64,000 nucleotides of DNA from Selenobaculum gibii (GTDB taxonomy: Bacteria; Bacillota; Negativicutes; ICN-92133), in contig NZ_CP120678.1 of assembly GCF_030273445.1 (NCBI RefSeq), positions 352,401 to 416,400 on the forward strand, given 5' to 3'. The position numbers and the translations under genes are program-made. Below are positions 9,168-19,307 of this stretch, piece by piece; the first letter of the stretch is position 1; each line of letters starts with the position of its first letter. The notes beneath the pieces were generated by a model. That model worked only from the letters and a program-made list of their open reading frames with translations. It was not told the origin of the DNA and did no database searches.

Positions 9168-10331
9168 GTGTACGGTATTGTTTTAGTAGTTATTCTAATT
9201 GTTATGGGCGGCGCAATTGCTTACATTGGTGATAAACTGGGAAGCAAAGTCGGCAAGAGAAAACTATCTATATTTGGATTAAGACCGAAGCATACTTCGA
9301 TTATTGTAACGATTATTACAGGAATACTGATTACTTCCTCAACGCTTGCAGTTTTAGCAATGACCTCTGAAAATGTTCGCGTTGCTTTGTTTGGAATGGA
9401 AGCATTAAATAAACAAATTCGGGAAACTGAATTTAATTTAAATACAATTCAAGCAGAGTTGGATAATGCCAATCAACAGAGGCAGAAAACAGTTGCAGAG
9501 CTTGAAAAGGTGACTGCTGCGTATGAAAAGGCAAATCAAGATATAGCGCAGTCGCAGGAACAAATTAGAGCATTAGAAGTTACAAAAAATACATTGGAAG
9601 AAGCTAAAACAGCTTTGGACGCAAAAGTTGCAACTTTGACAGAAGAACAATCTGTGCGTGAAGCAGATATTGAACGACTTAATATTTTGACAGAAAAACT
9701 TAATAAAGGTATTTTATTTGTCAGAGAAGGACAAATTATTTTTCGGGCTGGTGAAGTTATTACTAATGTCGTTGTTCCATATATCGATAATGAAGATAAA
9801 CGCATGCATATGCTTTCTGACATCGTTTATCAGGCAAATAAGCAAATCCTAGAACGATTGGCTATTAAGGAAGATATTGAGGTTTTGTGGCTATCTCAAG
9901 CTGAATTTAATGAGGCGACGAGGCAATTATCATCTTTAGGACAAAAAGAAGCTGTGGTACGAATCATAGCGGCGGGAAATATCGTCTATGGTGAACCAGT
10001 TAGGGTACAAATCAAGTTATATCCTAACCATCGTATCTATAATCAAAATGACTTTGTTTACAGTGAAGTTGTTTCAGTTGAAAAAGGGGATAATGCGGAG
10101 CAGGTTGTATTGGATTTTCTAGCGGATGTAAATGAAAAGGCGATTGCTAAGGGAATATTGCCAGATCCAATTCGAAGGACTGTTGGAAGCATGACGGGGT
10201 CGCAATTTTATGATATTGTGAATAATATAGAAAATTTAAACGGAAAAATTGAAATTTCAGCGTATGCTGGAGATGATGTTAATGCAGCAGGTCCATTACG
10301 CTTAAATGTCTACGTAAAAACGCTAAATTAA
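9168..10331 (+). CDS. DUF3084 domain-containing membrane coiled-coil protein
   Basis: A 387-residue protein starting with GTG at 9168 after the strong site AAAGGAGGG. Two N-terminal hydrophobic segments (about residues 3-22 and 45-66) flank GSKVGKRKLSIFGLRPKHT, the conserved start of DUF3084. A long coiled coil covers about residues 78-178, rich in Glu, Gln, Ala and Lys. A globular C-terminal part follows, with REGQIIFRAGEVI as its most conserved stretch. Its biochemical role is not established. It sits 25 nt after the permease gene in the same orientation, so a role in envelope or LPS transport is plausible but inferred. Confidence 0.8.
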   Translation: MYGIVLVVILIVMGGAIAYIGDKLGSKVGKRKLSIFGLRPKHTSIIVTIITGILITSSTLAVLAMTSENVRVALFGMEALNKQIRETEFNLNTIQAELDNANQQRQKTVAELEKVTAAYEKANQDIAQSQEQIRALEVTKNTLEEAKTALDAKVATLTEEQSVREADIERLNILTEKLNKGILFVREGQIIFRAGEVITNVVVPYIDNEDKRMHMLSDIVYQANKQILERLAIKEDIEVLWLSQAEFNEATRQLSSLGQKEAVVRIIAAGNIVYGEPVRVQIKLYPNHRIYNQNDFVYSEVVSVEKGDNAEQVVLDFLADVNEKAIAKGILPDPIRRTVGSMTGSQFYDIVNNIENLNGKIEISAYAGDDVNAAGPLRLNVYVKTLN

Positions 10332-10800: not shown

Positions 10801-10924
10801 AAAAAATCATGAATGACTGACTAGTCTACACACATATGACAATCCTACCGATGAATTTAATTTAGTCTACATACCTGCGAAATGCTGCAGGGACATAAAA
10901 GGGACTTAGTGAGTTGGAAGCTTT

Positions 10925-10942
10925 GAGGAAACGTGGATACTC
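10925..10942 (+). promoter_or_regulatory. 18-nt conserved porin leader element, copy 1
   Basis: GAGGAAACGTGGATACTC, identical in the leaders of all three SLH porin genes. Here it ends 90 nt before the start codon. GAG and CTC at its ends can pair around a 12-nt loop. Its role is unknown. Confidence 0.75.
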
Positions 10943-11032
10943 GGAGTGGATGCCAATAAACGAAATACCTTGAATGTCGGTGCTTGCACCAGCAAAAAAA
11001 CATTTAAATTTATTCAAGGGGGATTTCCGAAA

Positions 11033-12169
11033 ATGAACAAAAAATTATTAAAGGTTGCCGTTACAAGTGCATTAACTGTTGCATTTGCTGTACCAGCATT
11101 TGCAAATCCATTCGTTGATGTATCTAAAGATCATTGGGCATATGATGCAGTTGTTGAGTTAGCTAAAGAAGGTGTAATTGAAGGTTATGGCGATAACACT
11201 TTCCGTGGTGAGCAAAACATTACTCGTTATGAAATGGCTCAAATGGTAGCAAAAGCTATGGATCAAGATCTAACTGGTGAACAAAAAGCCACTGTTGAAA
11301 AACTAGCGAGAGAATTTGCTAAAGAATTAAACTCTTTAGGTAAAGATGTTAAAAATCTTAAAGCTGAACAAGAACGTGTAAAAATTTCCGGTGATGCTCG
11401 TGTTCGTTATGGTTCTAACGATGAAAGCGACAAAACTGACTTCAGAGCACGTGTTACTCTTGACGGAAAAATTTCTGACAACTTAAAATTCAACACTCGT
11501 GTATCCAGTGGTGACATTAGTTATGACGAAAATAGTGAAGGCATCGTTTTAGATACTGCAAACTTAAGCTTTAATGCACTTGGCTTAGAAAATACAGTTG
11601 GTCGCCAAGACTTAACTTTAGGTACTGGTACAATCATTGACGATACAATGACTGGTATTAGCTCTGAAGTTGGCGGTTTAAAAGTATTCTATGGCAACCA
11701 TGCATCTGAAGAACAAGACTTATTTGGTGCTGAATACGGTACTGAATTGTTTGGTGCAGATGTGAACCTTGATTATATGAAAGCTGATGCTAAACAAGGT
11801 GAAGATAAAGAGTTCTATGGCGTGAATACTTCTTTCGGTATCACAAAAAATATCAGCATGAACGCTGAATATGCAAAAGAAAATAAATCCGGTGATGATG
11901 CAGTAGCTTATGGTATCAAATTCGATAAATTAGGTTTATCTGCAACTTACAAAGATGTAGAATCTGGTGCAGCTACTAACTATGGTACACAAGCATACGA
12001 TATCAATAACGTATCTTTCTTAAGTGAAGGTTACAAAGGTATGGAATACAAACTTGAAAGAGAATTAAATGAAAATACTCTATTCACTGTAAAATACCAA
12101 GACTTTGAAAACCAAGCTGGTACAAAAGATGATAACCGTACTTCTGCTTACTTGAATGTTAAATTCTAA
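11033..12169 (+). CDS. SLH-domain outer membrane porin (OmpM-like), copy 1
   Basis: Outer-membrane beta-barrel anchored to the cell wall, the Negativicutes counterpart of a structural porin. Starting at the ATG at 11033 after AAGGGGGA, it has 378 residues. An upstream in-frame extension has no ribosome site and would bury the signal peptide. The layout is a signal peptide (to AFA, about residue 23), one SLH domain (about 24-75, with FVDVSKDHWAYDAV and ITRYEMAQMVAKAM), a coiled coil (about 80-115) and a barrel ending in a C-terminal phenylalanine (LNVKF). The SLH domain binds polyamine-modified peptidoglycan in characterised relatives. Its barrel differs strongly from those of the two downstream porins. 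Confidence 0.9.
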   Translation: MNKKLLKVAVTSALTVAFAVPAFANPFVDVSKDHWAYDAVVELAKEGVIEGYGDNTFRGEQNITRYEMAQMVAKAMDQDLTGEQKATVEKLAREFAKELNSLGKDVKNLKAEQERVKISGDARVRYGSNDESDKTDFRARVTLDGKISDNLKFNTRVSSGDISYDENSEGIVLDTANLSFNALGLENTVGRQDLTLGTGTIIDDTMTGISSEVGGLKVFYGNHASEEQDLFGAEYGTELFGADVNLDYMKADAKQGEDKEFYGVNTSFGITKNISMNAEYAKENKSGDDAVAYGIKFDKLGLSATYKDVESGAATNYGTQAYDINNVSFLSEGYKGMEYKLERELNENTLFTVKYQDFENQAGTKDDNRTSAYLNVKF

Positions 12170-12191
12170 TTATTAAAAGAGTTAGTTTCTG

Positions 12192-12230
12192 AAAACAGCC
12201 GCCTTGCGATTGCAAGGTGGCTGTTTTATA
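12192..12230 (+). terminator. Intrinsic terminator of the first porin
   Basis: A 16-bp stem with one G-U pair, AAAACAGCCGCCTTGC against GCAAGGTGGCTGTTTT (12192-12227), leads into a short T-rich end. Confidence 0.9.
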
Positions 12231-12254
12231 CTGTAGGCAGAGAGAGGTGAGTTG

Positions 12255-12659
12255 ATGAATATTTTATCTATTGATCCAGGACGAGAAAAGAGCGGTGTAG
12301 CTATTTTAAATCAAGATGAAATTTTGCTGCATCAAGTAATAGAAAGTGAGATATTAATAGAATTTTGTATCGCAAATATCAAAAAATTTAAGATTTTAGC
12401 AATTGTTATTGGAGATGGAACCTCTTCAAAAGAAGCAATAAAAAATCTGAAAAATGAGATAAAGGAAATGCCTATTTATAAAATCAATGAGTATCGTACA
12501 ACTGATGCGGCAAAAATTCGTTATTGGAAGGATAATCCCCCAAAGGGGTTGAAAAGATTTTTTCCTAAAGGTCTGTTAGTTCCTCCGCGCCCTATAGATG
12601 ATTATGCAGCAATTATTTTAGGTGAACGATATTTGGAAAATAATAAAAAGAAAAAGTAG
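12255..12659 (+). CDS. Small RNase H-fold protein, YqgF/RuvC-like
   Basis: A 134-residue protein read from the ATG at 12255 (AGAGAGGTGAG upstream; a TTG one codon earlier is also possible). ILSIDPGREKSGVAI near residues 3-17 is the first acidic strand of RuvC/YqgF-type RNase H folds. VIGDGTSS near 55 and RPIDDYAAIILGERYL near 114-129 supply further acidic residues. Relatives process nucleic acids, but this is not canonical YqgF (RuvX), whose gene usually neighbours alaS, and its substrate is unknown. It sits alone between two porin genes, flanked by terminators, so it is probably its own transcription unit or reads through from the porin. Confidence 0.6.
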   Translation: MNILSIDPGREKSGVAILNQDEILLHQVIESEILIEFCIANIKKFKILAIVIGDGTSSKEAIKNLKNEIKEMPIYKINEYRTTDAAKIRYWKDNPPKGLKRFFPKGLLVPPRPIDDYAAIILGERYLENNKKKK

Positions 12660-12693
12660 CAAAATAAATTTATTTTGCTACTTTTTCTTTTTA
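12644..12693. terminator. Perfect 25-bp inverted repeat, bidirectional terminator
   Basis: The sequence ending the small RNase H-fold gene is perfectly complementary to the 25 nt after it, centred at 12668/12669. The stem has a GC-containing middle and A/T-rich ends, so it can terminate transcription from either side. Confidence 0.8.
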
Positions 12694-12701
12694 TCCTATT
12701 T

Positions 12702-12925
12702 TGTCGAAAAAAGAAGAATGTAAATGACCTTTATTAAGTTTTTTAAGATTTAAAAACTTAAATAATGAGGTTTTTGGTGATAAATATGATTTTAAACTTG
12801 CTTTTTCGACAAAATGAATTATAATATAGATAAGATTTCGACAAAATATACATAATAAATTGACGAAAAAAGTCGAAAATTTATAAAATGTAGAAAAAAA
12901 TATTAATTTAGGGTATTGTGTCGAA
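12702..12925. promoter_or_regulatory. Cluster of putative Spo0A boxes upstream of the second porin
   Basis: Core matches to TGTCGAA lie at 12702-12708 (+), 12805-12811 (-), 12837-12843 (-) and 12919-12925 (+). TGACGAA (12861-12867) and AGTCGAA (12871-12877) are near matches. The first three are embedded in TTTTGTCGAAA, the extended Spo0A box. Site 12805 lies in the spacer of one promoter candidate and site 12919 overlaps the -35 of the other. The rest of the gap 12660-13135 is AT-rich leader. Confidence 0.6.
12798..12825 (+). promoter_or_regulatory. Promoter candidate P1 of the second SLH porin
   Basis: TTGCTT, 16 nt, TATAAT. A minus-strand Spo0A-like box falls in its spacer. Confidence 0.5.
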
Positions 12926-12944
12926 ATATGAAATGGGTTATAAT
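12916..12944 (+). promoter_or_regulatory. Promoter candidate P2 of the second SLH porin
   Basis: TTGTGT, 17 nt, TATAAT. A TGTCGAA box at 12919-12925 overlaps the -35 hexamer. The predicted leader is about 185 nt. Confidence 0.7.
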
Positions 12945-13039
12945 AAACCCGTAAAGAAAATACAGCACAGGATTTATATGGCTGTAAATGAAGAGTTTAC
13001 ATATTTGGGATTGAATTCAAGTAAGGAAATATAATTGAA

Positions 13040-13057
13040 GAGGAAACGTGGATACTC
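13040..13057 (+). promoter_or_regulatory. 18-nt conserved porin leader element, copy 2
   Basis: GAGGAAACGTGGATACTC, ending 78 nt before the porin start. Upstream flanking sequence (GTTTACATATTT, GGAAATA) is also shared with copy 3. Confidence 0.75.
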
Positions 13058-13135
13058 TTGAAACGTATTTTCTGAAAAAATTTTTTTCTGGAAACGAAAC
13101 TCGAAAAAATAATTTATTTTGAGGGGGATTTTCTC

Positions 13136-14482
13136 ATGAAAAAAACACTTGCTGCTGCAATTACTTCAGCATTAGTTATCGGCGTAGCTGGTACAACTTT
13201 TGCTGCTGCAAATCCATTTTCCGATGTAAAGGCTGATCATTGGTCTTTCGACGCTGTTGCTAAATTAGCACAAGAAGGCGTTATTGAAGGTTATGGCGAC
13301 AACTCTTTCCGCGGTGATTCTCACATCACTCGTTATGAAATGGCTCAAATGGTAGCAAAAGCTATGGCAAAAGAAGACAAAGTGAATAAACAACAAAAAG
13401 CTATGATTGACAAATTGGCTGCAGAATATGCTGCAGAATTAGATAATCTTGGCGTTCGCGTTGCTAACTTAGAAAGCAAAATTGATAATGTAACTTGGAA
13501 CGGACAACTTCGTCTTCGTACACAAAAATGGGAAACAGAAGGTTCAGATGCTGCTTCCCAAAATCAAGTGTATTACGATTTAAATCTATCTGCAAAAATT
13601 AATGATGCATGGACAGGTCATGTTGAATTAGAAGGCGAACGTGTAATGAATGGCGTGGAATCTAATCCAATGGCAGATGATGATGGTTATGCAACTTCTA
13701 ATGTTTATGTAGAAGGTCCTTTATTTGGGGCAAATGCAAAAATTGGTAAATTTGATTCTTGGTCTGCACAAGGTCATGTATTAGATGATGCTATGCGTGG
13801 TATTGAATTAAACTATACTAGTGATAAATTAGATACTGTTATTAGAGCTGGACGTATAAACGGTGGTAACGATGATTACTATACTTGGCAACATGATAGA
13901 GGAGACAAAGGTGGAGACGGTTTAAATAACATGTCAGAACCAGCGAATTATGCAGCTATTGAATTTGATTATCGCACATCTCCTGCAACTACTTTACAAT
14001 TAGGTTATCATCATTTAACATCTGCAAATAAATTTGCTACTGTAAATGGAACTTTTGATGGTATGAAAGATGATACAAATAATATCTTTACTGCTGGTTT
14101 CCAAACTAAATTAACTAATGATTTAAAATTAGATGCTATTTATGCTAAATCAAGTACTGACAGCAATGTTCCACAAACTGCTGATTCTTGGGGTTATAAT
14201 TACGACGACAACGATGGTTATGCTGTTTATTTAAGATATAAAGGTGCTGATATTTCTGACAAAGGAAGTTATGGTATGTGGGTTGGATATTTTGATATTC
14301 CAATTTCTACAGTAATTTCTCCAACATACTATCTAGGTCATAGCTATGAAGCATTAGAAGTTGGTGTAGGTTACGTTCCTGCTGAAAACGTATTAGCAAA
14401 AGTTTACTACTGGGATGCAAAAGGTATTGGCGATACTCCAGATGCTGATATGTATCGTGCTCAAGTACAATTCTTCTTCTAA
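13136..14482 (+). CDS. SLH-domain outer membrane porin (OmpM-like), copy 2
   Basis: A 448-residue outer-membrane porin tethered to peptidoglycan. The signal peptide ends near residue 24 (TTFAAA). The SLH domain (about 25-78) is nearly identical to that of copy 3, with NPFSDVKADHWSFDAV and HITRYEMAQMVAKAM. A short coiled coil follows (about 85-118, LAAEYAAELDNLGVRV), then a barrel ending QVQFFF, a C-terminal phenylalanine signal for outer-membrane insertion. The start follows TTGAGGGGGA. Codon use is highly biased, as in abundant proteins. It has its own strong promoter and terminator. Confidence 0.93.
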   Translation: MKKTLAAAITSALVIGVAGTTFAAANPFSDVKADHWSFDAVAKLAQEGVIEGYGDNSFRGDSHITRYEMAQMVAKAMAKEDKVNKQQKAMIDKLAAEYAAELDNLGVRVANLESKIDNVTWNGQLRLRTQKWETEGSDAASQNQVYYDLNLSAKINDAWTGHVELEGERVMNGVESNPMADDDGYATSNVYVEGPLFGANAKIGKFDSWSAQGHVLDDAMRGIELNYTSDKLDTVIRAGRINGGNDDYYTWQHDRGDKGGDGLNNMSEPANYAAIEFDYRTSPATTLQLGYHHLTSANKFATVNGTFDGMKDDTNNIFTAGFQTKLTNDLKLDAIYAKSSTDSNVPQTADSWGYNYDDNDGYAVYLRYKGADISDKGSYGMWVGYFDIPISTVISPTYYLGHSYEALEVGVGYVPAENVLAKVYYWDAKGIGDTPDADMYRAQVQFFF

Positions 14483-14518
14483 TCCTAAAATTAAAAAATT
14501 ATTGCGCGATAATTTTAC

Positions 14519-14548
14519 AAGGCTCTTGCAGATGCAAGAGCCTTTTTT
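14519..14548 (+). terminator. Intrinsic terminator of the second porin
   Basis: AAGGCTCTTGCA pairs with TGCAAGAGCCTT across a 2-nt spacer (14519-14544) and is followed by TTTTA. Confidence 0.93.
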
Positions 14549-14621
14549 ATTTAAAAAATAAAAAAAGTTTTTGGAAATTTTTTAAAATAAAATAAAATTT
14601 AAATTTTTATTATAAATTTAG

Positions 14622-14663
14622 AAAAACACCTTATCAATATTATGATTTTAGGTGTTTTTTTTT
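14622..14663 (+). terminator. Second terminator-like hairpin
   Basis: AAAACACCT and AGGTGTTTT flank an 18-nt loop and are followed by a run of T. It may back up the terminator 100 nt upstream. Confidence 0.6.
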
Positions 14664-14704
14664 ATTTTATAAATTTAAAATTCTTCATTAATATGTAAAA
14701 AAAC

Positions 14705-14739
14705 TTTATTTCCATTTATGAAAATTAAATGGAAATAAA
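14705..14739. repeat. Perfect 14-bp inverted repeat in the gap before the third porin
   Basis: TTTATTTCCATTTA and TAAATGGAAATAAA flank a 7-nt loop; TTTCCA recurs at 14749. The rest of the 796-nt gap up to the promoter at 15050 is very AT-rich, and I see no gene in it. Confidence 0.6.
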
Positions 14740-15049
14740 TTGATTATATTTCCAAATTAAAAGAAGGAGTTTTATTTTAGTTGGAGAATCTTACAAAATC
14801 AAAGAGTTAAATTGCCAAATATAAGAAGTAAAAAGGAGCTCATTATAAATACTTTACAAAAAAGAAATATTTTAACATGAATAAAATTGCTTAAAAAGCA
14901 ATAAATTGATATTGCTGGAATTTAAAATAAAAGTATAAAATTCAAATAAAAATAACATCATAATAAAAATTCCCAGTAAATTAAAGGATTTAAAGTATGT
15001 TTAATACATTTTATCAGTAAAATTCTAAAAAAAATATTTATTTCAAGTA

Positions 15050-15078
15050 TTGCAAAAAAAATCTTTTAAATGTATAAT
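15050..15078 (+). promoter_or_regulatory. Promoter of the third SLH porin
   Basis: TTGCAA, 17 nt, TATAAT. The leader of about 195 nt contains a CGCGAA/TTCGCG hairpin (15109-15123) and the 18-nt element. No Spo0A-like box is present here. Confidence 0.7.
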
Positions 15079-15178
15079 ATGCCATGTAAAAGCTTGGAAA
15101 GCTATTAGCGCGAAATATTCGCGTTATAATAGAGAGTTACATATTTTGGATAAATTGAAGAAGGAAATAATATTTGAT

Positions 15179-15196
15179 GAGGAAACGTGGATACTC
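15179..15196 (+). promoter_or_regulatory. 18-nt conserved porin leader element, copy 3
   Basis: GAGGAAACGTGGATACTC, ending 82 nt before the porin start. Confidence 0.75.
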
Positions 15197-15278
15197 TTAA
15201 ATTGAATTTCTAACTGAGATTTTTTCTGAAAATGAACTCAAAAAATAAAAAAATATTTATTTTAAGGGGGATTTTCTC

Positions 15279-16541
15279 ATGAAAAAAACACTTGCTGCTG
15301 CAATCACTTCAGCACTAGTAATCGGTGCGGCTAGCACAACATTTGCTGCTGCAAATCCATTCTCTGATGTTGCAACTGACCATTGGTCTTTCGACGCTGT
15401 TGCTAAATTAGCTCAAGAAGGCGTTATCGAAGGTTATGGCGACAACACTTTCCGTGGTGATTCTCATATCACTCGTTATGAAATGGCTCAAATGGTAGCA
15501 AAAGCTATGGCTAAAGAAGACAAAGCTAATGCACAACAAAAAGCTATGATTGATAAATTAGCTGCTGAATATGCTGCTGAATTAGACAATCTTGGTGTTC
15601 GTGTAGCAAACTTAGAAGAAAAAGTTGGCAACGTAACTTGGGGTGGTAAAGTTCGTTTGCGTTTAATTTCTGATGATCCAAGTGATGGTGACAGAAACAC
15701 TACAACTAGCCAATCATATGCTGAATTATGGGCAAATGCAAAAATTAATAGTGATTGGTCAGCTCATGTAAAAGTTACATCTGATCGCACAATGGATAAA
15801 GAGGAAACTCATTTAATTGGGAATGATGCTTCTTCTAACAATGTGTTTGTTGAGGGGCCTTTATTTGGTGCAGATGCTAAATTTGGTAAATTTGATGTAT
15901 TTACAAACAACTATGGTTATGTAATGGATGATCCTATGACTGGTGCTCAATTGACTTGGAAAGGTGATAAACTTACAACTACTGTACGTGCAGGACGTTT
16001 AACAGATGAATTTTGGGTAAATGAAAAATATGATGATGCTGACAATTTCTTGGGTTATGACAATGCAGATACTCAATCCATTGAATTAACTTACGGGTTG
16101 AGCAATTCAGCGAATGTAAATGCTGCTTATTATAATGTATCAACTCAAAATTGGGATGATGAGAATCTTCACATTTGGACATTGGGATTTGACAGTAAAC
16201 TAGGGGAAGATTGGAAAATTGATGCTGTTTATGCAAAATCTAATGCTGATGGAGACGATATCAAAGATAACGGTTATTCTGTAAACTTAACTTATAAAGG
16301 TGCTGATATCAAAACAGTAGGTTCTTATGACGTTTGGTTAGGATACCGTAACACTCCTGTTTCAACACAAATTAGCACAACTAACTTTGGTAAAAAAGAT
16401 TATAAAGGTTGGGAACTTGGTTTTGATTACGTTCCTGCTGAAAATATTCAATTCCAAGCTAGATATTTTGATTCTAAAAATATCTACGATAGCGATATCA
16501 AAGATAAACAAGTTCGTGCGCAAGTTGAATTTTTCTTCTAA
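15279..16541 (+). CDS. SLH-domain outer membrane porin (OmpM-like), copy 3
   Basis: A 420-residue paralogue of copy 2. The signal peptide, SLH domain (about residues 25-78) and coiled coil are almost the same; the barrel is diverged but shares VEGPLFGA and VPAENI blocks and ends VEFFF. This pattern of a fixed anchor and a variable barrel suggests duplication followed by selection on surface-exposed loops, or recombination. The start follows TTAAGGGGGA, with the same 16 nt before the ATG as in copy 2. It has its own promoter and terminator. Confidence 0.93.
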   Translation: MKKTLAAAITSALVIGAASTTFAAANPFSDVATDHWSFDAVAKLAQEGVIEGYGDNTFRGDSHITRYEMAQMVAKAMAKEDKANAQQKAMIDKLAAEYAAELDNLGVRVANLEEKVGNVTWGGKVRLRLISDDPSDGDRNTTTSQSYAELWANAKINSDWSAHVKVTSDRTMDKEETHLIGNDASSNNVFVEGPLFGADAKFGKFDVFTNNYGYVMDDPMTGAQLTWKGDKLTTTVRAGRLTDEFWVNEKYDDADNFLGYDNADTQSIELTYGLSNSANVNAAYYNVSTQNWDDENLHIWTLGFDSKLGEDWKIDAVYAKSNADGDDIKDNGYSVNLTYKGADIKTVGSYDVWLGYRNTPVSTQISTTNFGKKDYKGWELGFDYVPAENIQFQARYFDSKNIYDSDIKDKQVRAQVEFFF

Positions 16542-17786: not shown

Positions 17787-19307
17787 ATGAATAAGCCAGT
17801 AAAGGCATTGTGTGCAGCAATTACGTTGTCGATTTTTTTAGGAACAAGTGTAGTTGTTTTAGCAGCAGAAGAAATAAATGAAAATATTGATACAGTGCAA
17901 GAGGTAGAGATTGCAACAAGTCAGCAAAATACTTCAAAAAATCAAGACAATCATAAAGTAAAAAATAAAGATAAGAAAAGTAAAAAAAATGAGAATAAAA
18001 AAATAGAACAGGAAGCTGCTCCACCAGCCCCTGTATTTTTTGATGGGGATGATATTTCTTTTGATAGTAATAGTGGAGATGTTTACGCACGTGGAAATGT
18101 AATAATTATTCAAGAACCTGCGAAAATTATCACTGATGAAGTAGAAGGTAATACAAAAACAAATGAAGTTTGGATCAAAGATTGGGCAAATATAAAACAG
18201 CCGAATGTAGATTTAAATGGGCATGATATTTTTTATAACTATCAACAAAAGACCGGGAAAATGGGGAAAACTGATGGTGTTGTAGATAAAAAGTTCATTC
18301 ATGGGGAGAATGTTGAAGTATCTCCAGAAATGATCACTATTTATAATGGAACTATCACAAAATGTCCTGCAAAGAAACCAGATTATCGTATTAGTGCTGA
18401 GAAAATTGAAGTTTGGCCAAATGATAAGCTGATTGCTTATAATGCGAAATTTTGGGTGAAAGATGTAGTAATTTATAGTACAAAGAAGTATACAACTGAA
18501 ATAGGCGAAAATCGCGAAGATGCTGTTTTCCCAGAAATGGGGTATAATAGTAGTGATGGCTTCTTCATCAAGCAAACTTTTACTGAGCCAATAGGGGGAG
18601 AGGATTCTTCAGTATCAGCCTTTTTTGACTTTGGATACTATACAAAACATGAGTTGAAAAATAGTTATGGCTTTGTGCAGAGAAAGCCTAACTATACCTT
18701 GCTGTTACAACAAGGTCACTTTATGGATGATGATGATGAATGGATAAAAAAGGAGCCTGAGATTAAGTTTAATTATGCAACACAGCGTATTGGTGATGGC
18801 CCTTGGAAATATGATTTTGAAGCTATTTATGGTAAGTGGAAGGATGAAGATAAATCAAGTTGGCATCAAGACTATACGATTTATTTTTCTCGTGATGTGA
18901 TAAAATTAAGTGACACCTTAAATCTTTATGTAGGAGCTGGGTATGAAATAGTTAGAGAAAGTTATGATCATTCTCAAACGAACAGTCTAAAGTATGATGT
19001 AACTTTTGTGAATAGATTTAGCGATAAGCTTACAGGCTGGTCAGGATATCACTATACGCAAAATAATAATAGTTTGTTTGATTATGACAGTACTGATGTA
19101 GCGAAAGAATTAGCAAGCGGAATAAACTATAAGCTTGATGATAAAAATTCTATTACGCTTGAGCAAAGTTATGATTTAGAAAATAAAAGAGTTGCAGATA
19201 TGGATTATACATTATCTCATGATTTACATTGCTGGGGTATGGATATAACGTATCGAGAAAAACGTGATGAATGGAAATTTATGCTTAAGACAAAACATTG
19301 GTTCTAG
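17787..19307 (+). CDS. lptD: LPS-assembly outer membrane protein LptD (short form)
   Basis: Outer-membrane translocon that receives LPS from LptA and places it in the outer leaflet. The signal peptide ends near residue 27. A linker rich in Lys and Asn (about 50-72) comes next. The OstA jellyroll follows (about 80-200, DDISFDSNSGDVYARGNV), then a barrel ending KTKHWF. At 506 residues it is much shorter than E. coli LptD (784), so the barrel is smaller or has short loops. The mature protein has only two cysteines, Cys193 in the jellyroll and Cys482 near the end. The ATG follows AGGAGTAATATTTATT. I see no lptE. Confidence 0.85.
   Translation: MNKPVKALCAAITLSIFLGTSVVVLAAEEINENIDTVQEVEIATSQQNTSKNQDNHKVKNKDKKSKKNENKKIEQEAAPPAPVFFDGDDISFDSNSGDVYARGNVIIIQEPAKIITDEVEGNTKTNEVWIKDWANIKQPNVDLNGHDIFYNYQQKTGKMGKTDGVVDKKFIHGENVEVSPEMITIYNGTITKCPAKKPDYRISAEKIEVWPNDKLIAYNAKFWVKDVVIYSTKKYTTEIGENREDAVFPEMGYNSSDGFFIKQTFTEPIGGEDSSVSAFFDFGYYTKHELKNSYGFVQRKPNYTLLLQQGHFMDDDDEWIKKEPEIKFNYATQRIGDGPWKYDFEAIYGKWKDEDKSSWHQDYTIYFSRDVIKLSDTLNLYVGAGYEIVRESYDHSQTNSLKYDVTFVNRFSDKLTGWSGYHYTQNNNSLFDYDSTDVAKELASGINYKLDDKNSITLEQSYDLENKRVADMDYTLSHDLHCWGMDITYREKRDEWKFMLKTKHWF

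Follow-up and report, generated by a model that had tools for sequence, protein, structure and literature searches.

A conserved hairpin in the leaders of outer-membrane porin genes of diderm Bacillota and Synergistota, a candidate translational switch

Three porin genes with a shared leader element

This study concerns a 64,000-nucleotide stretch of the Selenobaculum gibii genome (contig NZ_CP120678.1, positions 352,401 to 416,400), referred to below as the window, and a short element that precedes three outer-membrane porin genes within it. The element copies, their hairpins and the porin genes lie on the + strand, and positions are numbered from the first letter of the window. The genes encode an OmpM-like porin of 378 amino acids (aa) at 11033-12169, a second of 448 aa at 13136-14482, and a third of 420 aa at 15279-16541. 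Each contains a Pfam SLH domain (E=1.1e-12, 6e-14 and 4.7e-14, respectively), and the third also matches Porin_5 (E=1.9e-05). A first-pass annotation, made from the letters alone, had pointed to an identical sequence of 18 nucleotides (nt) in the leaders of all three, and this was correct: exact copies of GAGGAAACGTGGATACTC occur at 10925-10942, 13040-13057 and 15179-15196, ending 90, 78 and 82 nt before the porin ATG. No further site was present in the window at up to three mismatches; shuffled versions held 0.02 matches on average, and none of 100 shuffles reached three. The whole genome (2.68 Mb) contains the three exact copies and two places with three mismatches, and the reversed-pattern control matched it once.

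The 18-mer is the tip of a long imperfect RNA hairpin, and consists of three base pairs (bp), GAG/CTC, closing a 12-nt loop (GAAACNNGGNNA). In copy 1 the loop, GAAACGTGGATA, occupies 10928-10939, as given by its position inside the core and by its conservation among the Negativicutes sites described below. The predicted hairpins extend over 10882-10989, 12992-13103 and 15133-15240. Stretches of 101-111 nt spanning them (10880-10990, 13000-13100 and 15135-15235) folded with minimum free energies of -33.8, -18.2 and -18.1 kcal/mol, corresponding to z scores of -3.75, -2.0 and -2.2. A covariance model, R1, trained on Negativicutes leaders only, matched nothing in the window except the three copies (38.9, 42.7 and 39.2 bits), all of which belonged to its training set.

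Conservation, target genes and distribution

Nearly all sites found lie in the sense direction, 36-145 nt upstream of genes whose products are outer-membrane beta-barrel porins, some with an SLH domain and some lacking it. The fetched Negativicutes loci held 204 distinct sites at no more than one mismatch to RAGGAAACNNGGNNACTY, and 158 of the 169 exact sites and 16 of the 35 one-mismatch sites immediately precede porin genes, as called by a regular expression on the N-terminus. The exact sites that do not are mostly at contig or locus ends, before distant or unrecognised starts, or in masked sequence. The resulting 174 porin leaders precede SLH porins in 157 cases and porins without an SLH domain in 17. 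Pfam was applied to ten targets without an SLH domain, taken from Negativicutes and other Bacillota: three (L020, L103, L336) matched Porin_4 above the cut-off, two (L022, L142) gave weak barrel-type matches below it, and five (L168, L325, L340, L343, L352) matched no family. A C-terminal phenylalanine is a signature of beta-barrel proteins, and it ends 158 of 161 complete target open reading frames in Negativicutes, 29 of 31 in other Bacillota and 37 of 37 in Synergistota. An LptD-like gene in the window (17787-19307; weak NCBIfam match) has no element site according to either the pattern or model R1, which indicates that the element marks porins and not every outer-membrane protein.

The apical loop has the consensus GAAAC-NN-GG-N2-3-A and measures 12 nt, sometimes 13 nt; the Negativicutes sites were collected by pattern, so that their invariance is partly built in. 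Pair 1/18 is G-C in 143 of the 174 Negativicutes leaders, A-T in 29, G-T in one and A-C in one, and T-A was also seen at this pair (L176) and at pair 2/17 (L202). In 38 aligned sequences, the covariation score of a named helix of eight pairs was 0.396, compared with 0.174 for shuffles and at most 0.215 for slid controls. RNAalifold recovered only the four innermost pairs from the anchored leaders, because the lower stems shift by insertions and deletions, and arm-swap tests were used instead. Among 155 non-redundant Negativicutes leaders, matched arms gave a hairpin energy of -21.4 kcal/mol, compared with -11.9 kcal/mol when arms were swapped between loci (z -45) and -12.9 kcal/mol with reversed 3' arms. 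The arms outside the core vary freely in sequence, which speaks against an upstream open reading frame, yet they stay complementary. The earlier suggestion of a strongly constrained RNA site in the porin leaders is supported. The tip position of the 18-mer, the 3' arm that can sequester the ribosome-binding site (described below), and the spread beyond Negativicutes and beyond SLH porins go further than that suggestion.

The first-pass annotation had staked its case beforehand on the presence of the element in porin leaders of related genomes, and the 18-mer was present, at up to two mismatches, in 30 of 40 such genomes of the window's class. More widely, RAGGAAACNTGGANACTY occurs at no more than one mismatch in 295 of 380 Negativicutes genomes, and in 194 of the 234 that have at least 90% completeness and at most 5% contamination. 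An OmpM relative was found in 18 of the 19 searched Negativicutes genomes that have no such match, and most inspected leaders from pattern-negative genomes carry a variant of the element, with an GGCAACTC ending (GG-CA-ACTC loops), a 13-nt loop, or altered closing pairs. The leaders with the 13-nt loop form family f4 (L180, L181, L184, L185, L195, L198, L201), in which the loop reads GAAACNNGG-NNN-A and the flanking GAG/CTC is retained. No variant was detected in four leaders from three genomes (L173 of G013, L179 and L194 of G275, and L188 of G349).

The element is also present in other classes of Bacillota and in Synergistota. A search for SLH proteins gave 70 loci, nearly all from Synergistota, in which the element stands before 48 of the 59 SLH starts having enough upstream sequence, and exact RAGGDAACNNGGNNACTY was found in 67 of 100 Synergistota genomes. 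The element pattern matched 72 of 249 genomes sampled from the window's phylum. Forty loci were fetched from the matching genomes, and nearly all of their sites precede secreted SLH or barrel-like proteins. Model R1, applied to 81 loci, gave 46 matches: a divergent Negativicutes leader accounts for one, and the Synergistota-dominated set for the other 45. Two pattern matches (L359, L360) look like chance occurrences and were left out of the replication described in the next section. A metagenome-assembled genome labelled 'Clostridiales bacterium Firm_16' (L203) has the element together with an SLH porin that resembles those of Synergistota (88% identity to a Synergistota-style query), and may be misnamed.

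Among the genomes tested outside Negativicutes, a search for Omp85/BamA was successful in all 38 element-positive ones and in 2 of 42 negatives (Fisher p 1.6e-20); the positives were chosen from 65 pattern-positive genomes as having several or helix-conforming sites, and the negatives from 176, so that the comparison omits the other 27 pattern-positive genomes, likely chance matches among them. In the genomes tested, the element follows the outer membrane. Genomes G514 and G542 have Omp85 and no exact element match, and may hold variants as in Negativicutes.

A predicted alternative fold covering the Shine-Dalgarno region

The 3' arm of the hairpin has a second potential partner, the Shine-Dalgarno (SD) region of the gene it precedes. 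When the 3' arm and linker (core to start) were paired with the SD region of the same leader, the duplex energy in 133 Negativicutes leaders was -13.6 kcal/mol, compared with -10.5 kcal/mol when partners were swapped (z -16), and control pairings of the 5' arm with the SD region and of the 3' arm with the coding start gave z scores of -0.7 and 0.4. The result was replicated in independent leaders from other Bacillota (z -6.5, n=37) and Synergistota (z -6.8, n=38), for which the reversed controls were at z -1.2 and -1.4. The two pairings share bases, in that a mean of 71% of the anti-SD bases are paired in the 3' arm of the hairpin as well. The complementarity of the 3' arm to its own SD region means that there are two mutually exclusive conserved helices, one of which covers the SD, and this points to a translational switch. 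Deletion of the 5' arm lowered the mean computed probability of an unpaired SD from 0.345 to 0.218, with a drop in 101 of the 133 leaders; the mean was 0.266 with the 5' arm shuffled, and 0.328 with the 5' arm deleted and the 3' arm shuffled. In the window, the anti-SD stretch of copy 1 lies at 10968-10976 and forms a duplex of -14.9 kcal/mol with the SD region of porin 1 (TTATTCAAGGGGGATTTCCG, 11010-11029).

Several results weigh against a switch of this kind. The reversed 3' arm control deviates in Negativicutes too (z -4.8), as do two further controls in other Bacillota (both z -3.8), so that base composition contributes to the anti-SD signal. The mean accessibility of the SD shifts only moderately. 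The anti-SD duplex is weak in the other two window copies, namely that of the U-rich stretch 13076-13089 with the SD region of porin 2 at 13120-13132 (copy 2, -7.0 kcal/mol), and that of 15216-15237 with the SD region of porin 3 at 15255-15275 (copy 3, -8.1 kcal/mol). The hairpin outcompetes the anti-SD duplex in 130 of the 133 leaders (median -11.2 kcal/mol), and without a factor the switch might therefore never throw. A promoter scan upstream of the element showed no clear peak (best-site score 8.87, compared with 8.31 for shuffled sequence); its structure suggests that the element is transcribed.

With these points taken into account, the element probably serves the control of porin mRNAs in cis, as a two-fold leader switch read by a trans-acting factor. 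The leader would fold as a long imperfect hairpin that displays the conserved apical loop, closed by its short helix, and the 3' arm would double as an anti-SD sequence matched to its own gene. While the hairpin stands, the SD would be freer, and if the 5' arm were displaced or cut away, the 3' arm would cover it. The conserved loop would most likely be the recognition site of the trans-acting factor, presumably a protein, which could read all porin mRNAs at once and, in response to some physiological signal, decide between the two folds. As the hairpin is more stable than its alternative and forms earlier, the default state would be ON, and the regulated step would be the opening or cleaving of the hairpin to lower porin synthesis.

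Leader switches based on anti-SD and anti-anti-SD helices are found in translational riboswitches and ribosomal-protein leaders, where exclusive helices decide whether the SD is covered. The porin element resembles these in that mutually exclusive helices would decide SD coverage, but differs in that sensing would depend on one conserved hairpin loop on a fast-evolving stem, and in that the targets are outer-membrane porins across two phyla.

Competing explanations, related systems and neighbouring features

A protein target and a stability element had both been named in the first-pass annotation, and both are possible. As a 5'-terminal element for mRNA stability or processing, the hairpin would block 5'-dependent decay or be an RNase site itself, with the loop needed for folding or nuclease recognition; the 5' stem of ompA in E. 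coli is an example of such a stability element. It would fit with a long stable hairpin near the presumed 5' end of genes whose products are expected to be abundant, and with a TATAAT that, on visual inspection, lies shortly before the stem base of copy 3. Stability alone, however, requires neither a conserved 12-nt loop nor a leader-specific anti-SD sequence in the 3' arm, and this explanation is considered unlikely, even if it survives better than those that follow.

Somewhat less likely is a translation-enhancing or ribosome-standby module, in which a far-upstream SD-like sequence, GAAAGGAGGUG, would load 30S subunits and the hairpin would bring them to the real start. The motif GGAGGTG resembles a full-length SD, the complement of the 16S 3' end, and is found within the 200 nt preceding the loop in 33 of 46 leaders from other Bacillota, 17 of 49 from Synergistota and 18 of 173 from Negativicutes; there were none on the opposite strand and 0-1 in the interval -400 to -200. 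A start-like triplet follows 4-14 nt after the motif in 7 of 68 cases. Most Negativicutes leaders, however, lack it, among them those of the three window copies, and a standby module leaves the invariant loop unexplained. GGAGGTG is usually part of GAAAGGAGGTG, about 75-90 nt upstream of the loop (L325-L358, L203-L262, L010, L105, L158 and others). This sequence looks like a perfect SD, is mostly without a start codon after it, and may be a ribosome standby or decoy site.

A metabolite-binding riboswitch, the function proposed for the 'SLH motif' (Stav et al. 2019, PMC6429828, Fig. 3e), is improbable to a slightly greater degree. According to the passages that describe it, this motif was found in Thermovirga lienii, is an uncharacterised riboswitch candidate with 80 examples in Synergistaceae, Clostridia and Negativicutes, and lies before SLH genes in about 60% of cases and before genes of unknown function in about 40%; cyclic di-GMP (c-di-GMP) was named as a possible ligand, as a guess (PMC6429828). 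The element described here is probably the same motif, as judged from genes and taxa rather than from the consensus: it too precedes SLH genes in most of the Negativicutes and Synergistota leaders counted above, and occurs in Synergistota, Negativicutes and other Firmicutes. A riboswitch would be in keeping with this shared gene association and range of taxa, and with an aptamer-like conserved loop joined to an expression platform. On the other hand, the conserved part is a single short loop, and no Rfam family matched the element at gathering level; the weak sub-threshold matches up to E 5 were taken as chance, and no c-di-GMP family was among them. Of 29 genomes searched for GGDEF domains, 16 yielded none. 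Each of these 16 has element matches, although some of these carriers are known by pattern matches only. This argues against c-di-GMP as a general ligand.

The two descriptions agree in that the roughly 40% of motif targets of unknown function (PMC6429828) fit the non-SLH barrels found here. They differ in extent, 80 examples compared with hundreds of genomes, and in interpretation, since a ligand riboswitch was proposed there, and the passages on the motif mention neither porins nor an anti-SD switch. Literature searches returned no other paper describing the element. Within the reach of those searches, four points are new: that porins, not SLH proteins, are the shared target, that the element is tied to genomes bearing Omp85, that the leader has an anti-SD partner fold, and that there is evidence against c-di-GMP. 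The RNA element is real and widespread, targets porins and shows a conserved anatomy of two folds, and it is probably an expansion of the orphan published motif. What is probably an orphan riboswitch candidate of 2019 gains a function and a testable anatomy, and the findings weigh against its proposed ligand.

In Proteobacteria, sigmaE-dependent small RNAs (sRNAs) control porins post-transcriptionally, and the first-pass annotation had likened the element to their targets. A trans-encoded sRNA pairing with the loop would be in keeping with a purine-rich loop exposed in a porin leader, but is regarded as quite improbable. Loop positions N9, N10 and N14 differ even among paralogues within one genome (e.g. 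G023); no second locus for the 18-mer was found at up to two mismatches in the S. gibii genome beyond the three copies, short seeds with GAAAC alone not being part of that search; and Hfq was not found in 18 of 45 element-bearing genomes. The likeness to the sigmaE system is confined to post-transcriptional control of a porin regulon, as proposed here, and the differences are that the element is a conserved cis hairpin, that no sRNA was found, and that Hfq is not required. A binding site for CsrA or Hfq, suggested by GGA motifs in the loop that resemble CsrA sites, can be given hardly any weight, as the same absence of Hfq, and that of CsrA from 9 of 38 carriers, are incompatible with either as a general explanation. 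A DNA operator with a short palindrome, the other half of the original suggestion of 'an RNA or DNA site', would fit the GAG/CTC covariation too, but has a similarly negligible probability, given the sense orientation to the porin gene in the leaders examined, and given that complementarity persists along 30-nt arms as their sequence changes and also involves the SD region, a pattern that only RNA explains well; the RNA half of that suggestion stands.

CsrA, Hfq, GGDEF proteins and c-di-GMP were thus all rejected as the general partner, each protein being missing from many carriers. For the two-fold leader switch, the simplest remaining idea would be a protein that reads GAAAC..GG..A in the loop. 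More tentatively, a dedicated RNA-binding protein might dock at the loop and coordinate the porins across diderm Bacillota and Synergistota. Such a system would be an ancient equivalent, independent of Hfq, of sigmaE-sRNA control in Proteobacteria, retained along with the outer membrane and lacking where there is none. Little work seems to have addressed how these bacteria adjust their porins. A single short RNA element that marks porin mRNAs across both groups offers, in the loop hairpin, a concrete bait and, in SD accessibility, a concrete readout for finding the regulator.

A subset of Negativicutes leaders (L018, L023, L028, L030, L125 and others) has two further conserved hairpins. One, CCTGC..GCAGG, lies upstream of the element and was matched by regular expression in 22 of 174 leaders; the other, GGTGGYAACACC, lies between the element and the SD in 16 of 174, and the two occur together in 14. 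Within the window, the leader of porin 1 is directly preceded by a DUF3084 gene (9168-10331; Pfam E=2.3e-31). Between porins 1 and 2 there is a short RuvX-like open reading frame (12252-12692; below the Pfam cut-off), which is followed by a 20-bp inverted repeat with a U-tract that resembles a bidirectional terminator.

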